Source: Polaribacter sp. BAL334
GTDB taxonomy: Bacteria > Bacteroidota > Bacteroidia > Flavobacteriales > Flavobacteriaceae
Length of the DNA: 64,000 bases
Direction: 5' to 3'
Assembly: GCF_015767435.1 (NCBI RefSeq)
Contig: NZ_JADWOV010000301.1
Coordinates: 248,001 to 312,000 of the forward strand
The translations under genes were made by a program, and so were the position numbers. Each line of letters starts with the position of its first letter. The first letter of the stretch is position 1. The notes beneath the pieces are model-generated. The model was not told the origin of the DNA, did no database searches, and was given only the letters and a program-made list of their open reading frames with translations. Of this stretch, positions 19,371-52,230 are shown piece by piece.

Positions 19371-20026
19371 AAAGAGAAATACGCATCACTTCTGATGGTT
19401 CAACTACGATTCATTTGCCTGAATGGAATGAACAATATCATTCAAAACATGGTGCTATTCAAGAAGCAAAACATGTGTTTATAAAGAATGGTTTTAGCAC
19501 CATTTCCTCTGATAAAATTTCGATTTTAGAAATTGGTTTTGGAACGGGATTGAATGCATTTATTACTTTTTTAGAAGCAAAAAAATCAACAAAAAACATT
19601 GATTATGTGGGAGTTGAAGCGTATCCCGTTGAAGATTTAGAAATTCAACAACTCAATTATGTTTCGGAACTAAATGCACAAGAATTTCAAGCTATTTTTG
19701 AGGAAATGCATGCTATTTCTTGGGAAGAAAAATTTCAGATTTCAACTAATTTTTCATTGACGAAAAGAAAGCAATTTTTCAATGAAATTACGGATGAAAA
19801 TACGTTTGATATCATCTTTTTTGATGCTTTTGGTGTGAGAGTTCAACCAGAATTATGGACGGAAATAATTTTCTCAAAAATGTACAAAGCATTGAAAAAC
19901 GATGGGATTTTAGTAACGTATGCTGCAGCAGGAAGTGTAAGAAGAGCAATGCAATCTGTAGGATTTACCATTGAAAAATTGCAAGGACCACCAGGAAAGA
20001 GAGAAATGTTGAGAGGAGTAAAATAG
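19367..20026 (+). CDS. mnmD: tRNA 5-methylaminomethyl-2-thiouridine methyltransferase (MnmD type)
   Basis: SAM-dependent enzyme equivalent to the N-terminal half of E. coli MnmC, which methylates the wobble-uridine side chain in tRNA. 219 residues, starting with TTG inside a TTGA overlap with the upstream stop. Motifs: SDGSTTIHLPEWNEQYHSKHGA, EIGFGTGLNAF (SAM loop), DIIFFDAFG, and YAAAGSVRRAM...GPPGKREML. The oxidase half is absent, as in many Gram-positives and Bacteroidota. Its stop is followed at once by a heptad array. Confidence 0.93.
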   Translation: MKREIRITSDGSTTIHLPEWNEQYHSKHGAIQEAKHVFIKNGFSTISSDKISILEIGFGTGLNAFITFLEAKKSTKNIDYVGVEAYPVEDLEIQQLNYVSELNAQEFQAIFEEMHAISWEEKFQISTNFSLTKRKQFFNEITDENTFDIIFFDAFGVRVQPELWTEIIFSKMYKALKNDGILVTYAAAGSVRRAMQSVGFTIEKLQGPPGKREMLRGVK

Positions 20027-20061
20027 TTTTTAGTCTTTAGTTGTTAGTTGTTGGTTTTTTG
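20027..20061 (+). repeat. Heptanucleotide array directly after the mnmD stop
   Basis: Five in-register 7-base units: TTTTTAG, TCTTTAG, TTGTTAG, TTGTTGG, TTTTTTG. The first unit starts at the base after the stop codon, and the last seven bases of the gene (AAAATAG) fit the same unit. Confidence 0.75.
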
Positions 20062-32080: not shown

Positions 32081-32302
32081 TTAATACTTTTTAAGAAAAT
32101 AGATAAATGAAACAATTCCAATTATAAGTTGAATTGTACCCCAAAAAAAATTATGCCACTTATCAAAGTATTTGCCTAAAATCTTTTCTGAAAGGTAAGA
32201 AGTAACAGGTAATTCAAAATGAATTGTTTTCTTATTTTTAAATACAGCATAATAAGAATATAATCCATGGATTATTAAAAAGATACTTACAATTAATTCC
32301 AT
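32081..32302 (-). CDS. Small two-helix membrane protein of unknown function
   Basis: 73 residues from the ATG giving MELIVSIFLIIHGLYSYYAV. Two hydrophobic helices flank a polar loop with SYLSEKILGKYFDKWHNFF. No family is recognised. The plausible membrane layout and its place between two larger genes support it, but expression signals are not clear. Seven upstream codons in frame are ignored. Confidence 0.55.
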   Translation of the reverse strand: MELIVSIFLIIHGLYSYYAVFKNKKTIHFELPVTSYLSEKILGKYFDKWHNFFWGTIQLIIGIVSFIYFLKKY

Positions 32303-32344
32303 AAATAAAATTTTAAAACACAATTAGTATATTTTATAGTTCCT

Positions 32345-32400
32345 TTAAATTTTACTGCTTAAAGCCTACTGCCTAAAGCCTTCAGCCTTCAGCCAAGAAC
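32345..32400 (-). repeat. Heptanucleotide array directly after the amidohydrolase stop
   Basis: Read on the minus strand from the base after the stop: GTTCTTG, GCTGAAG, GCTGAAG, GCTTTAG, GCAGTAG, GCTTTAA, GCAGTAA, AATTTAA. Eight units keep register without a gap. Stop triplets TGA, TAG and TAA fall in all three frames. Confidence 0.82.
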
Positions 32401-35400
32401 TTACTCATGACAACTACACGTTGGCGCAATAAATGAGTTGGTGTCAAAATTCAATGGAACTCCTTGGTTGTATCCTTCCTTTTCAAAGTAAAATGGAGAC
32501 CTTTTTGTGGTGTAATTTCCTATTTCATTCATTGTATTTACATCGTACAAACGTCCATTGATCATGGTATATATCACTGAATTGGAGTTTTTGATATCTT
32601 CTAAAGGATTTTTGTCCAAAATGATTAAATCTGCTAATTTTCCTGAAACCAAAGAACCCAATTCATTTCCAACTCCAATATAATTTGCACCATTGATGGT
32701 GGCCGCTTTTAGGGCTTCATGATTGGACAAACCTCCTTGTTGCAGCATCCACAATTCCCAATGAGCACCCAAACCTTGCAATTGACCATGGGCACCTAAA
32801 TTTACTTTTACGCCCAATTTTGCCAAATCAGTCACTGTTTTGGAAGTCAAAATGTGTCCGTTTTCATATTCCTCTTCAGGCACCATTGTTCTGTGTCTTG
32901 AACGCGAATCCACCACATATCTTGGAGTGTATTTTAGCAATGTGCTGTTTTCCCAAACATTCATTTTTTGATACCATTCAAATTCGCCATTCATACCTCC
33001 ATAATTGACAATTAAAGTAGGAGTGTAGCCAGTTTTGCTGTTTTTCCAAAGCGTTAAAACATCTTTATACACAGGATTTACAGGAATATTATGCTCAATT
33101 CCTGTGTGACCATCAAAAATCATATTCATGTTTGAAAAGAAATTGGAACCTCCTTCAGGCACCACATTCACACCCAATTCTTTGGCTGCTTGCATGATTT
33201 GTTGACGTTGTTCTCTTCTTGGTTGATTGTAACTTTTGATCGATTTTGCGCCAAAAGCTTTCGTTCTTGCAATGGCAAATCTGGCATCCTCAAGATTGTT
33301 AATAACAGCTTTGAAATCGCCTTCTGCACCATATAAAATAAATCCTGTTGAAAACAATCTTGGACCCACAGTTTGTCCACTTTTTTGCAATTCTTCTAGC
33401 GTAAATGCAGCTGCTGTGTGCACTGAAGGGTCATGAGAAGTGGTCACTCCAAAAGCCAAATTTGCATAAAATTGCCAATGTTTTTTTGTACTCAAACCGT
33501 TTCTGAAAGCACCTACATGCGCATGAACATCCACGATTCCAGGCATGATTGTTTTGCCATTCATATCAAAAACTTTTGCATCTGAAGGAATGGTAATTGC
33601 ACTGGTTTTGCCCACTTTTTCAATTTTATTTCTATGGATGATAATGGTGCCATCTTCGATAATTTTATCACCATCCATCGTAATAATTCGTGCATTTTTA
33701 AAAGCAATTCTTCCTTCAGGAATGTCTGATTTTGTGGTTAAATTGATGTCAATTGCAACGTTTTCAATGGCAGATAAGTTTGTTTTTGCAAACGGATTTG
33801 TGGTGTTATTTTCAATCGATTTTGAATAATATTTATCTCCTAAAGTCCAAAAAACGGTGCTGTTTTTTTCATTCCAATGCAAGTTGATTCCAGCGTTTTT
33901 AGACAAACTTTCTACGTTGAAAGCTTTGGTATTTTCGTCCAAATCGATTTCAGTTCCGTTTAAAAATAAAGGTGCAACATACAATTTGTGCAAGTGAATA
34001 AAAGAAATCCATGTATTGTTTTTGCTTGGCACTAATCTGTTGGCTAATTTTGAAGAAACATGACTTCTTTCGTCTTTTCCCTCCAAGTCAACACTGAGTA
34101 ATTTTTTAGTCAATCCACCAAAAAAAGAACCTCCTGTTTGAAAGAAAATTCTAAAATCATCAGCAGAAAATGAAGGAAATTCTCCTGATTTTGAGACTAA
34201 TTTTGGGGCTGTTCCATCCAAATTTGCAATGTAAATGCCAGTTTCTTTGGTATAATCAAAACCTTGATCACCATTACCAGCTTCTTTTCTATAAGCGATT
34301 TTTGTTCCTGAATTGTTATAAACTGGTGTTCTGTATATTCCTTTTTCTTGGGTGATTTTCTCCAAACCAGTACCATCTAAATTTATTGTATAAATCGCTC
34401 CCAAATTTTCATCATTCCAAGTCACAAACAATACCGATTTTCCATCTACAGAAAAACTTGGTTCAGCTTCAAAATCAGGCAAATTGGTAATTTTTGTTGG
34501 AATTCCATCAGGCAAATTTTTCTTATAAATGTGCCCCAAAGCAGTAAAAACGATTGTTTTTTCGTCTGGAGAAGTTTGCACATCTTTGATCATTTTCGAA
34601 GTAAATTCCTCTTCAAACGCCTTTCTTTGCACTTGATGTGTTTCCGCTAATTTCAAATCTGCGTTCACTTCAAAAGGAATATTTTCAATTTGTTTGGTTT
34701 CAATAGTTATTTTATTGATTTTTCCTTGCGCCCAAATCACAATATCTTGGTTATTTGGCATCCATGCAAAGTTTGGATATACCCCAAAAACAGCCCAAGC
34801 CTCTTGCTGATCTTTACTCAGATTTTCATAAATCGGAAATTCTTTTCCAGTTTCCAATTCATGAATATACAATACTGATTTTGTTCTCACACGTTTCACA
34901 AACGCCAACATTTTTCCGTCTTTTGAAATGACAGGTTTTGCTGCACCTCCAGGACCACCTGTAATTTGAGTGATTTCTCCCGTTTCAAAATTGAATTGTT
35001 TGATGACATAAATCTGTTTGTTTGGATCTTTGTTATATTCAAAAGCACCTCCTGGATACATGTCTTCTGCAAAATACAAGTATTTTCCGTCTGACGAAAT
35101 GGAGGGATCATTCACATCTTGTTGGTCGTTTTTGCGTTTTGTCAATTGCAAACCTGCTGCACCAGAAAGTGGATATTGCCACATTTCGCCTGCACCAACA
35201 GAACGTTCAGACGTAAAATGTTTTCTTGCAACCAACGATTTTCCATCTGGAGTCCAAACAGCATTGTTGAGCAATCTGAATTTTTCTTTGGTGATGGATT
35301 TCGCATTTTTACCATCAGCAGTCATTACCCAAATATTATCTCCACCTTCTGCATCACTCGTAAATGAGATGTATTTTCCATCTGGACTGAATTTTGGTTG

Positions 35401-35679
35401 GATTTCATACGCCAAACCAGCTCTTAAAACGGTGGCTTTTCCTCCTGAAATTGGCATCGAATAAATGTCTCCTAACAAATCAAAAACGATGGTTTTCCCA
35501 TCAGGAGAAACATCTAAATTCATCCAAGTTCCTTCATCAGTACTGAGCTTAAAAGTGTTGAATTTCCAATCCTTATAAGGATTATTTACATTCCATTCAG
35601 TTGATTTTTCCTCTTTTTTTTGAGCATTTATGACAAAAGTAACACTTAAAAAAAGTAATGAGATTAGATTTTTATACAT
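32401..35679 (-). CDS. Exported TolB-propeller/amidohydrolase fusion protein
   Basis: 1092 residues with a signal peptide (MYKNLISLLFLSVTFVINAQ). Residues about 50-640 carry repeated PD40/TolB beta-propeller blades (SPDGKTIVF, FSPDGKYISF, SVDGKSVLF and others). Residues about 660-1080 form an amidohydrolase (imidazolonepropionase-like) barrel: MPGIVDVHAHVG, KSIKSYNQP, FDGHTGIEHN, LGAHGQLQGLGAHWE. The usual barrel-end Asp is not obvious at the last motif, as seen in this family. A periplasmic dipeptidase or prolidase-like role is inferred. It converges with the hydroxyproline cluster. The coding stop is followed by a heptad array. Confidence 0.9.
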   Translation of the reverse strand: MYKNLISLLFLSVTFVINAQKKEEKSTEWNVNNPYKDWKFNTFKLSTDEGTWMNLDVSPDGKTIVFDLLGDIYSMPISGGKATVLRAGLAYEIQPKFSPDGKYISFTSDAEGGDNIWVMTADGKNAKSITKEKFRLLNNAVWTPDGKSLVARKHFTSERSVGAGEMWQYPLSGAAGLQLTKRKNDQQDVNDPSISSDGKYLYFAEDMYPGGAFEYNKDPNKQIYVIKQFNFETGEITQITGGPGGAAKPVISKDGKMLAFVKRVRTKSVLYIHELETGKEFPIYENLSKDQQEAWAVFGVYPNFAWMPNNQDIVIWAQGKINKITIETKQIENIPFEVNADLKLAETHQVQRKAFEEEFTSKMIKDVQTSPDEKTIVFTALGHIYKKNLPDGIPTKITNLPDFEAEPSFSVDGKSVLFVTWNDENLGAIYTINLDGTGLEKITQEKGIYRTPVYNNSGTKIAYRKEAGNGDQGFDYTKETGIYIANLDGTAPKLVSKSGEFPSFSADDFRIFFQTGGSFFGGLTKKLLSVDLEGKDERSHVSSKLANRLVPSKNNTWISFIHLHKLYVAPLFLNGTEIDLDENTKAFNVESLSKNAGINLHWNEKNSTVFWTLGDKYYSKSIENNTTNPFAKTNLSAIENVAIDINLTTKSDIPEGRIAFKNARIITMDGDKIIEDGTIIIHRNKIEKVGKTSAITIPSDAKVFDMNGKTIMPGIVDVHAHVGAFRNGLSTKKHWQFYANLAFGVTTSHDPSVHTAAAFTLEELQKSGQTVGPRLFSTGFILYGAEGDFKAVINNLEDARFAIARTKAFGAKSIKSYNQPRREQRQQIMQAAKELGVNVVPEGGSNFFSNMNMIFDGHTGIEHNIPVNPVYKDVLTLWKNSKTGYTPTLIVNYGGMNGEFEWYQKMNVWENSTLLKYTPRYVVDSRSRHRTMVPEEEYENGHILTSKTVTDLAKLGVKVNLGAHGQLQGLGAHWELWMLQQGGLSNHEALKAATINGANYIGVGNELGSLVSGKLADLIILDKNPLEDIKNSNSVIYTMINGRLYDVNTMNEIGNYTTKRSPFYFEKEGYNQGVPLNFDTNSFIAPTCSCHE

Positions 35680-49403: not shown

Positions 49404-49484
49404 TCTTTTAGTTTAAAATTTCGGGTTTAAAATTTCGAGTTCAAAGTACAACCTTGAATTTTAAATTTTAAACCTTGAACCTAT
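49404..49484 (-). repeat. Heptanucleotide array filling the gap between the sigma-54 activator and lptE
   Basis: From the activator stop on the minus strand: ATAGGTT, CAAGGTT, TAAAATT, TAAAATT, CAAGGTT, GTACTTT, GAACTCG, AAATTTT, AAACCCG, AAATTTT, AAACTAA, then AAGA and the lptE ATG. Eleven units run in register. Exact repeats are TAAAATT twice, CAAGGTT twice and AAATTTT twice. Confidence 0.8.
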
Positions 49485-50711
49485 TTACAAATCATATTGT
49501 TTGATTTTTCGATACAAAGTTCGTTCAGAAATACCCAATTCTTTCGCAGCTAATTTACGTTTATTATTGTTTTTTTCTAATGAACGTTTGATCATTTCGA
49601 TTTCTTTGTCTTGCAAAGACAAACTTTCATCTTCTTCAATAGTTTCGATAAAATCATAATTTTTTTCTACAGCAACTTTTTGTGGTATGTTCAACACCTC
49701 AATATTCGAGCTTTTGGGTTCTTTATTTCCATAGATTTTTTCAATCAACTGATGATTTTCTTGCTGTACATCTTCAATATTTTCGCTGTTCAATAAATCT
49801 AAAGTCAATTTTTTCAAATCGTTGATATCATTGCGCATGTCAAATAAAATTTTGTACATGATATCACGTTCGTTTGAAAAATCATTTTCTTTTTTTGAAC
49901 CTCCAATAATCGCCGGTAAATGTCCTTTATGATCAGGTAAATATAGTTGTAATTTCGCGGCAGAAATAGTTCTACTTTCTTCAATTACAGATATTTGTTC
50001 TGCCAAATTTTTTAGTTGACGGATATTTCCAGGAAATCTGTAATTCAATAAAACCTGAACAGCATCATCTTCCAATCTTACTGCAGGCATTCTATATTTT
50101 TGTGCAAAATCCGAAGCAAATTTTCGGAACAGCAAATGGATGTCTTGAAGGCGTTCTCTGAGCGCAGGTAAATGAATTTCTACGGTACTTAATCTGTAAT
50201 ACAAATCTTCTCTAAAACGCTCTTTTTCTATAGCTGTATGCATATTCACATTGGTTGCAGCTACAATTCGAACGTCCGTTTTTTGCACAATTGATGAACC
50301 AACTTTTATAAATTCACCATTTTCTAAGACGCGTAACAATCGGACTTGAGTGGTTAAAGGCAATTCGCCAACTTCATCTAAAAAAATTGTGCCACCATCA
50401 GCTACTTCAAAATAGCCTTTTCTATCTTGAGTTGCACCTGTAAAAGAACCTTTTTCATGACCAAATAATTCACTATCAATAGTTCCCTCTGGAATGGCAC
50501 CACAGTTTACAGCAATGTATTTGGCATGTTTTCTGTGCGATAATTGATGAATAATTTTCGGAATATTTTCTTTACCAACACCACTTTCTCCAGTCACCAA
50601 AACAGAAATATCAGTAGGCGCAACACGCACTGCTTTTTCCAATGCCATATTGAGATGAACATCATTTCCAATGATGCCAAATCGCAGTTTTAATGTTTGT
50701 AAATCTTCCAT
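49485..50711 (-). CDS. Sigma-54-interacting transcriptional activator without receiver domain
   Basis: 408 residues. An AAA+ domain starts almost at the N-terminus: Walker A GESGVGKE, sigma-54 loop GSFTGATQDRKG (canonical is GAFTGA), Walker B GTIFLDEVGEL, and VRIVAATN. A linker of about 90 residues leads to a Fis-type helix-turn-helix at the C-terminus (KLAAKELGISERTLYRKI). It lacks a response-regulator receiver or GAF domain. Regulation by partner protein or expression level is therefore likely. Targets are unknown. It is between miaB and lptE. Confidence 0.95.
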   Translation of the reverse strand: MEDLQTLKLRFGIIGNDVHLNMALEKAVRVAPTDISVLVTGESGVGKENIPKIIHQLSHRKHAKYIAVNCGAIPEGTIDSELFGHEKGSFTGATQDRKGYFEVADGGTIFLDEVGELPLTTQVRLLRVLENGEFIKVGSSIVQKTDVRIVAATNVNMHTAIEKERFREDLYYRLSTVEIHLPALRERLQDIHLLFRKFASDFAQKYRMPAVRLEDDAVQVLLNYRFPGNIRQLKNLAEQISVIEESRTISAAKLQLYLPDHKGHLPAIIGGSKKENDFSNERDIMYKILFDMRNDINDLKKLTLDLLNSENIEDVQQENHQLIEKIYGNKEPKSSNIEVLNIPQKVAVEKNYDFIETIEEDESLSLQDKEIEMIKRSLEKNNNKRKLAAKELGISERTLYRKIKQYDL

Positions 50712-50775
50712 TTTTATTTTCTAGATAAAAGAAAAAAGAGTCAATCTATATTCTTTTTTCTCTTTTCTTGTTTTT
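50712..50775 (-). repeat. Heptanucleotide array with hairpin between miaB and the activator gene
   Basis: From the miaB stop on the minus strand: AAAAACA, AGAAAAG, AGAAAAA, AGAATAT, AGATTGA, CTCTTTT, TTCTTTT, ATCTAGA, AAATAAA, then A and ATG. The A/G-rich left part pairs with the C/T-rich right part (GAAAAGAGAAAAAAGA with TCTTTTTTCTTTT), so it can also act as a terminator for miaB. Confidence 0.65.
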
Positions 50776-52230
50776 TTAGTTATTATCAGAATACCCAACA
50801 GCAGTTCCTCTCAAAGTTGCAGACGTGCAATCTTCCACTTTCACCATTACAAAATCACCCAATTTATAGTGCTCTTTGGGAAAAACGATCACTGTATTTT
50901 GGGTATTTCTTCCTTTCCATTCATTTGGATTTTTCTTTGAAACACCTTCAATCAAAACTTCTTCAATTTTCCCTAAATGTTGTTGCGTTCTGTATAAGGC
51001 ATGTTTTTGTTGCAAGGCAATCACTTCTTCTAAACGTCTTTTTTTCACTTCTTCAGGCACATCATCTACCATTTTTTTGGCAGCTAAAGTTCCTGGTCTT
51101 TCAGAATAGGCAAACATAAATCCAAAATCATATTTTACATATTCCATTAAGTTCAACGTATCTTTATGATCATCTTCTGTTTCTCCACAAAAACCAACAA
51201 TCATATCTTGAGACAATGCCATTTCTGGAATTATTTTATAGATATTATTCACCAATTGCATATATTCTTCACGTGTATGCTGTCTGTTCATCGCTTTTAG
51301 CATATTGTTGCTTCCACTTTGAACAGGTAAATGAATGTATTTGCAAATATTTTTGTGTTTTGCCATGACGTGAATCACCTCCAAACTCATGTCTTGAGGA
51401 TTTGAAGTTGAAAAACGAAAACGTGTTTTTGGAAATTCTGTAGCGCACATATCTAACAATTCCGCAAAATTTACAGCAGTTGCTTGCGCCATTTCTGATG
51501 CTTTGTTGAAATCTTTTTTCAATCCACCACCAAACCAAAGATAACTGTCCACATTTTGACCAAGAAGTGTGATTTCCTTATAGTTACTTTCAACCATATT
51601 TCGGATTTCATCCAAAATACTTTGTGGATCACGACTTCTTTCACGACCTCTAGTAAAAGGAACCACGCAAAAAGTACACATATTATCACAACCTCTTGTA
51701 ATCGAAACAAATGCAGAAACTCCATTCGAATTCAAACGAACTGGAGACACATCACCATAGGTTTCGTCTTTGGATAAAATGACATTGACAGCATCTCTTC
51801 CTGCTTCAATTTCTTCTAATAAATTAGGTAAATCACGATACGCATCTGGTCCTACAACCAAATCAACAATTTTTTCTTCTTCTAAAAATTTTTCTTTCAG
51901 ACGTTCTGCCATACAACCCAAAACACCTACTTTCATGTTTTTGTTGATTTTTTTGACAGCATTGTATTTTTTCAAACGATTACGAACCGTAGTTTCTGCT
52001 TTTTCGCGAATGGAACAGGTATTTACCAATACCAAATCAGCTTCTTCTAAGATTTGAGTGGTGTTAAAACCTTGATCAGCAAGGATGGAAGCCACAATTT
52101 CACTATCATTCATATTCATTTGACAGCCATAGCTTTCAATGAATAATTTCTTGGTATTTCCTTCTTTATGTTGTGTTACAAGTGCTTTGCCTTGCAATCG
52201 TTCGTCAATAACTTTTTCTACAGGTTCCAT
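50776..52230 (-). CDS. miaB: tRNA-2-methylthio-N6-dimethylallyladenosine synthase
   Basis: Radical SAM methylthiotransferase modifying A37 of tRNA. 484 residues. The N-terminal cluster domain has FIESYGCQMNMNDSEI, NTCSIREKAE and VGVLGCMAE. The radical SAM site is RGCDNMCTFCVVPFTRG (three Cys). HLPVQSGSNNML and the C-terminal TRAM domain (VIVFPKEHYKLGDFVMVKV) complete it. Standard length. Stop followed by a heptad array. Confidence 0.98.
   Translation of the reverse strand: MEPVEKVIDERLQGKALVTQHKEGNTKKLFIESYGCQMNMNDSEIVASILADQGFNTTQILEEADLVLVNTCSIREKAETTVRNRLKKYNAVKKINKNMKVGVLGCMAERLKEKFLEEEKIVDLVVGPDAYRDLPNLLEEIEAGRDAVNVILSKDETYGDVSPVRLNSNGVSAFVSITRGCDNMCTFCVVPFTRGRERSRDPQSILDEIRNMVESNYKEITLLGQNVDSYLWFGGGLKKDFNKASEMAQATAVNFAELLDMCATEFPKTRFRFSTSNPQDMSLEVIHVMAKHKNICKYIHLPVQSGSNNMLKAMNRQHTREEYMQLVNNIYKIIPEMALSQDMIVGFCGETEDDHKDTLNLMEYVKYDFGFMFAYSERPGTLAAKKMVDDVPEEVKKRRLEEVIALQQKHALYRTQQHLGKIEEVLIEGVSKKNPNEWKGRNTQNTVIVFPKEHYKLGDFVMVKVEDCTSATLRGTAVGYSDNN

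Follow-up and report, generated by a model that had tools for sequence, protein, structure and literature searches.

Seven-base units with variable positions occur in cyanobacterial STRR sequences and in tRNA-Leu intron heptads, which belong to another phylum and have other sequences than the array analysed here. Long simple sequence repeats were surveyed by Mrazek et al. in 2007, reportedly with 7-nt units over-represented and slippage proposed; as far as the citing papers tell, this general survey covers neither polarity nor degenerate arrays. Closer systems are two kinds of intergenic heptamers reported from Xanthomonas and Nostoc, GGGAATC and GGGGA(T/C)T (Rehm et al. 2015, PMC4692102), which lie nearer to their 5' neighbouring ORF whatever its orientation, on the antisense strand when upstream of an ORF and on the sense strand when downstream of a stop. 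They were linked to quadruplexes, which formed in vitro, and their function was left open by the authors (PMC4692102). Furthermore, TAACTGA direct repeats are described in Beggiatoaceae, Cyanobacteria and five Bacteroidetes, mostly just before starts (MacGregor 2015, PMC4679880); one set of Flexibacter litoralis immediately follows a stop and is in the reverse orientation, in Microcystis the orientation is mixed, and other heptamers are noted beside these repeats. Hence, the original prediction, according to which no named element of this structure was known in Bacteroidota, has to be corrected, as intergenic arrays of heptanucleotides placed in the same way have been published (PMC4692102; PMC4679880), five Bacteroidetes included. 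A search of the open-access literature, with subscription journals outside its scope, found no description of degenerate post-stop heptads in Bacteroidota.

The array examined here is located at 32345..32400 on the (-) strand of the window, i.e. the whole 64 kb stretch of DNA that was analysed, on contig C225 of a 3.30 Mb draft genome of 329 contigs (G000). It directly follows the stop codon of a gene for a secreted-type PD40 beta-propeller / amidohydrolase protein of 1092 aa (32401..35679, (-)), assigned from its ORF, Pfam and orthologs; the best orthologous loci are those of Polaribacter, for which reason the genome is termed Polaribacter-like, and the C-terminus, with which the protein stops before the array, agrees with the Polaribacter orthologs. 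After the stop TAA the minus strand reads GTTCTTG, GCTGAAG twice, GCTTTAG, GCAGTAG, GCTTTAA, GCAGTAA and AATTTAA, and the letters, the strand, the heptad register and the start at the base after the stop are all as first described. The units at both ends of the array are weak; periodicity is clear over 32353-32394 (-), a part of about six units which can be read as GGCTGAA twice, GGCTTTA, GGCAGTA, GGCTTTA and AGCAGTA, with the GGC strand directed outward from the gene. The array thus holds three unit types (GGCTGAA, GGCTTTA and GGCAGTA) and not near-identical units; exact TAACTGA is absent and the longest G run is GG. On the far side of the array a small ORF is found at 32081..32323 (-), of 80 aa from TTG or 73 aa from ATG at 32302, with no Pfam match and with no counterpart in any other genome among the 40 genus genomes searched. 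Judged by eye, its product is possibly membrane-bound.

By its period, place and polarity the window array is a degenerate variant of the heptanucleotide intergenic repeats, with neither published unit. The arrays described below share with those of Xanthomonas and Nostoc, as far as the latter are reported, the seven-base unit, a mostly non-coding location, some inverted pairs, the overlap with stops and the same placement rule, and in both cases the arrays of related species vary in length and sequence (PMC4692102). However, they belong to other phyla, have other units and are more degenerate, and while the Xanthomonas and Nostoc units contain runs of three or four G (PMC4692102), the CAGT/TAGT units contain none and the window GGC units only G pairs, which would allow at most a putative two-layer quadruplex. 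TAACTGA, read as ACTG+ATA, is a member of the ACTGNNN class and has no G-runs; at starts its ACTG lies on the coding strand, with the same polarity as the arrays here, and the reported F. litoralis set behaves likewise (PMC4679880). It is nevertheless one exact unit found mainly before starts (PMC4679880), whereas the window array follows a stop and combines several different units. The placement rule of the quadruplex-forming heptamers therefore extends to Bacteroidota units of unrelated sequence without G-runs and, since CAGT/TAGT units obey it, G-quadruplex formation cannot be its general cause. Two questions are thereby made testable, namely what favours seven-base tandem repeats in bacteria and what makes them point away from genes.

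In order to evaluate the periodicity, the lag-7 identity of the window array was compared with shuffled sequences. It amounts to 32/49 over the 56 bases, while 20,000 dinucleotide shuffles gave a mean of 12.5 and a maximum of 28, none reaching 32; no other segment of this length in the 64 kb scores as high at lag 7, and the best value in 100 shuffles of the complete window was 31. Tandem Repeats Finder reports between 32353 and 32394 a 14-base unit repeated 2.1 times (93%), the duplication of GGCTTTA GGCAGTA, beside a 7-base unit repeated 2.6 times (100%), the duplication of GGCTGAA. The periodicity is hence not due to chance, as had been proposed, but the accompanying claim that the array is no slipped microsatellite is not supported, in view of these nested 7- and 14-base duplications and of the long homogeneous arrays at other loci of relatives, both of the kind that slippage produces; the mixed units would be a decayed or shuffled form of such arrays. 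The distinction initially drawn between nearly fixed and variable unit positions is no better than random (P = 1.0 for 6, 7 or 8 units) and, among 34 arrays found without assuming a core, the mean number of invariant positions was 2.32 for 2.52 expected. A fixed core with a hypervariable spacer, suggested by the ACTGNNN matches, was accordingly rejected, those matches preselecting a fixed core and the core-free test being non-significant. For the window site, a terminator or a stable hairpin was rejected, in agreement with the first description: no intrinsic terminator, with a T run behind a G+C-rich stem, was found there, and the RNA fold is no better than that of shuffles, with z of -0.3 and +0.3 on the array strand and +1.4 on the other.

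Period 7 was next sought without assuming any unit in 428 kb (the whole of C225, and C250) of the 3.3 Mb genome. Ten of 11 lag-7 arrays are intergenic, compared to 0-2 intergenic arrays at periods 4, 5, 8, 10, 11 and 13; nine of these ten overlap an upstream stop or are no more than 10 nt away from it, and for four the gap is so short that a start is within 10 nt as well. The autocorrelation check proposed with the original prediction was run on the same 428 kb, and among 157 segments of 63 nt taken after stops, 9 attain the threshold of 19/28 at lag 7, compared to 0-2 at lags 4, 5, 8, 10, 11, 13 and 14 and to a mean of 0.49 (maximum 3) in 200 dinucleotide-shuffled sets. Among segments taken 70-133 nt after stops, 1/76 passes the threshold. 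Period 7 is thus enriched beside stop codons in this part of the genome, as anticipated. The excess is weaker in 1.56 Mb around 80 orthologous genes, where 13 intergenic arrays have period 7, four of them after a stop and three before a start, while other periods give 1-5. In 0.8 Mb of eight genus genomes, chosen regardless of arrays, there are 11 such arrays, four after a stop and six before a start, compared to 0-7 at other periods, the highest count coming from period 8. Moreover, tetramers repeated at least four times have a spacing of 7 in 42 places of 3.19 Mb, 16 of which come from G002 stretches partly picked around known arrays, while the other spacings from 5 to 16 are found in 1-14 places.

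The window contains two further arrays. One, at 20024..20059 (+), reads TAGTTTT, TAGTCTT, TAGTTGT, TAGTTGT and TGGTTTT (L394) and overlaps the stop of an ORF ending at 20026; the other is a degenerate heptad array at 49438..49482 (-), which follows the stop of ORF 49485-50711 at a distance of 2 nt. This latter array is AT-rich, as is a stretch at 50723-50785 (-) that verges on low complexity; both have a degenerate period of 7 and adjoin the stop of a neighbouring ORF.

The window array and that at 20024..20059 belong to a class of scattered heptanucleotide arrays, with YRGTNNN or GGCNNNN on the outward strand, present in the own genome and in relatives. Four consecutive GGCNNNN units are found in 16/59 relatives, often in long and homogeneous arrays. 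In the own genome they are found in the window array only, a looser GC pattern gave 5 matches for 8 in the backwards control, and a DNA search with the window array returned a single match. ACTGNNN x4 is present in 26/59 relatives, with backwards controls that are mostly zero but reach 19 in G012 and 15 in G013, and ACTANNN x4 in 31/59, with higher backwards controls in several genomes (G012, G020, G025, G051, G052). The own genome displays no match to ACTGNNN x4, 12 to ACTANNN x4 (backwards control 0) and 31 to ACYRNNN x4 (backwards control 3), these counts including overlapping matches from single arrays; the 31 form 19 arrays. In the phylum sample ACTRNNN x5 is found in 172/392 genomes, not all of which is signal given that the backwards control is as high or higher in some families (G247, G270). 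An origin of the TAGT type by AT drift is not supported, the GC content of the stretches being 31.4% in G000 and 29.0-30.7% in the CAGT-type genomes.

The YRGTNNN arrays abut the CDS at stops and at starts with their YRGTNNN strand pointing outward. Genes were called by a simple longest-ORF script and not by a trained gene finder, and arrays inside called ORFs or with no called neighbour were dropped. Among 67 CAGT-type arrays (9 dropped from 76, at 70 loci), 54 have a CDS edge no further than 20 nt from the 5' side of their CAGT strand and 1 has it that close to the 3' side; for the 54, this edge is a stop in 33 arrays and a start in the other 21. In a larger set of loci analysed with strict cores, 104/113 arrays (13 dropped from 126) are nearer to the CDS on their 5' side and 91 compared to 7 are within 20 nt of it, with ATG accounting for 30 of the 34 start codons involved; the pooled figure overstates independence since some arrays are orthologous between species. 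Convergent gene pairs, in which start-codon choice plays no part, follow the polarity rule for 17/19 arrays. The same polarity is observed in single genomes, with 17/17 class arrays of the own genome (2 dropped from 19) nearer to the CDS on the 5' side and 14 compared to 1 within 20 nt, and with 20/21 in G013, 9/9 in G021, 12/14 in G020 and 7/7 in G001. All 11 GGC arrays, the window array included, are within 20 nt of a CDS on the side given by the outward rule and 3/11 on the other side; for the window array itself (L011) the distances are 6 nt and 40 nt, respectively. Arrays from unselected stretches give 5 versus 0 of 8. Outside the genus the polarity is weaker, with 14 versus 3 of 26 in the phylum sample and 19 versus 5 of 24 for the ACTA arrays of relatives.

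The window array is absent at 25/25 orthologous gene ends of the genus, i.e. 28 loci minus the own one and two without the gene (L455 and L456 left out), where the best score is 17/28 versus 22, and a conserved element was therefore rejected for it. The sister-species comparison proposed at the outset thus speaks against conservation. The array is likewise absent at all 32 orthologous ends inspected out of 80 loci, with stop placement doubtful in a few distant ones (e.g. L062) and with species shared between the two sets. Other, unrelated heptad arrays are found beside the amidohydrolase ortholog in 3/80 loci, directly after the stop in L107, 62 nt after it in L096 and before the start in L097; that of L107 (6371-9731), a Flammeovirgaceae MAG ortholog, is a degenerate NNNNAAG array. 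Elsewhere, an array shared between species differs by 14 bases (L228 vs L243), and another is kept at the same gene ends between species with different unit letters (L234 and L264, and L375 in the own genome).

The rpoB-rpoC spacer, found in 98/116 genus genomes, allows heptad hairpins and a conserved spacer to be compared at one site among relatives. Seventy spacers (L298-L367, with L358 mis-called and L366 incomplete) were taken, 30 as the best matches to a heptad-bearing query and 40 hand-picked, so that their proportions are not representative. In 39 of them a CAGT/TAGT arm follows the rpoB stop and an ACTG/ACTA arm precedes the rpoC start, or a derived form of this arrangement is seen; the own genome belongs to this group (L328, G000:C187:116508-117944). 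Thirty others contain a conserved, hairpin-bearing spacer of some 100 nt, with AATTCGAATCCATTA usually preceding the start, and one is different. Heptad hairpin arms hence occupy the place of the conserved spacer in part of the genus. Both forms are interleaved on a tree of the flanking genes, much of which is weakly supported and from which G000, G006 and G092 were left out by a stricter start pattern; among its 11 rows classified as other, 10 are CAGT-derived spacers with a changed stem and one (G026) is another hairpin. The central 14-pair stem was compared in 12 spacers, picked from 30 for their differing stems, a choice that favours covariation: 99.4% of the cells are paired, changes on both sides occur at 11 pairs, and 0/500 shuffles are as high. 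Furthermore, the unit type at rpoB-rpoC is that of the rest of the genome in G000, G005 and G006 (TAGT) and in G013, G001, G034, G009, G015 and G011 (CAGT), G021 being close to a tie and G024 a tie. Relatedness may explain part of this agreement.

We lean, with some reservation, towards the window array being a partly decayed heptad array produced by slippage and template switching and bounded by coding sequence. Arrays would be built and rewritten, in DNA free of coding constraint, by a polymerase slipping 7 or 14 bases at a time, an occasional switch onto the complementary strand would produce the inverted partner arms, and the 3' end of the ACTG/GCC strand would advance towards the neighbouring CDS until purifying selection halts its growth at the stop or start codon. 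The nested 7- and 14-base duplications and the homogeneous long arrays of relatives support slippage, the 0/25 orthologous sites and the 14-base difference between L228 and L243 support turnover, and the observed polarity would require directional growth. The window array would then be without function, and a function at this site is not supported. Against such a mutational origin, plain slippage inserts units and would not alone bring an array to the edge of a CDS, the polarity is weaker beyond the genus, and the GGC unit is single in the own genome. Short repeats are indeed frequent in the window (56 rows in the tandem-repeat listing) and periodicity could in principle arise by chance in AT-rich intergenic DNA, but given the 20,000 shuffles and the excess of period 7 over other periods this explanation is practically out of the question. 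Another reading is that of a back-up device placing stops in all frames after the gene, since each complete unit of the window array overlaps a stop triplet. Stops in every frame had been put forward from the start and are present to a mild excess, all frames being stopped within 45 nt after 26/57 array-bearing stops versus 162/549 others (odds ratio 2.0, p = 0.016); as a purpose, however, the proposal is not supported. A further in-frame stop is not enriched after array-bearing stops (0.67 vs 0.68), stop-free units (GGCTATT, GGCTGTT, CAGTATT) occupy the same post-stop position, and arrays are found before starts as well (21 of the 54 edge-abutting CAGT-type arrays). A stop device as general purpose is thus largely refuted, and we regard it as very unlikely for the window array.

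A selected RNA or DNA element deserves more weight. In such a case coding regions would be delimited by arrays and partner arms that serve as spacer hairpins, as stability elements or as binding sites for a multimeric protein recognising a motif at 7-nt spacing, and unit types would differ through co-evolution of site and reader. The agreement of unit types within genomes and the conserved pairing at rpoB-rpoC could reflect selection, and some arrays persist at the same gene ends across species (L234/L264/L375). However, the both-side changes come from spacers chosen for differing stems and inverted-template mutation can alter both arms together, the agreement is a tie in G024 and close to one in G021, many homogeneous arrays have no partner arm, the window array is neither conserved nor better folded than shuffles, and the polarity mirrors the CDS and not the direction of transcription, unlike a transcript-level signal; on the whole, we doubt this explanation, though it may apply. 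We find it improbable that the arrays are dispersed mobile or recombining elements, copied with defined flanks between loci or imported between species. The interleaving of heptad and conserved rpoB-rpoC spacers on the flanking-gene tree would fit such copying, as would a shared 3' flank, CAAAA being found within 12 nt 3' of the array in 15/31 homogeneous arrays versus 1/82 mixed ones (and further out in 2/31), and the 3' flanks of L254 and L260, two arrays of one genome, being alike by eye; but the window array has a single DNA match in its genome and array lengths vary by units of 7. Returning to slippage and template switching, a broader version may be suggested, quite tentatively: several phyla might share a directional process that writes seven-base arrays up to the CDS edge on a fixed outward strand, in a genome-specific unit 'dialect', and that reaches even the rpoB-rpoC spacer. 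It would be an unrecognised mutational or regulatory system and not a quadruplex effect, given that units without G-runs follow the rule.

Several minor features of the arrays were also observed. Homogeneous arrays often end in CAAAAATAAAAA on their 3' side (L254, L260, L209, L251, L027), the complement of which resembles the Bacteroidota -7 promoter box, and ACTG/TAGT may be comparable to the seven-base operators of RHH proteins. Several genomes of the genus contain AATTNNN heptad arrays in which the spacers vary widely (L160 17993, L162 18110, L172 16773, L144 3930, L148 564); their core is palindromic and their polarity is therefore unreadable. At L258 (G020:C1:2261000-2266100), CAGTNNN arrays form a cluster in which they alternate with copies of a dispersed repeat containing TGTCATTCCGAAATGAGG.
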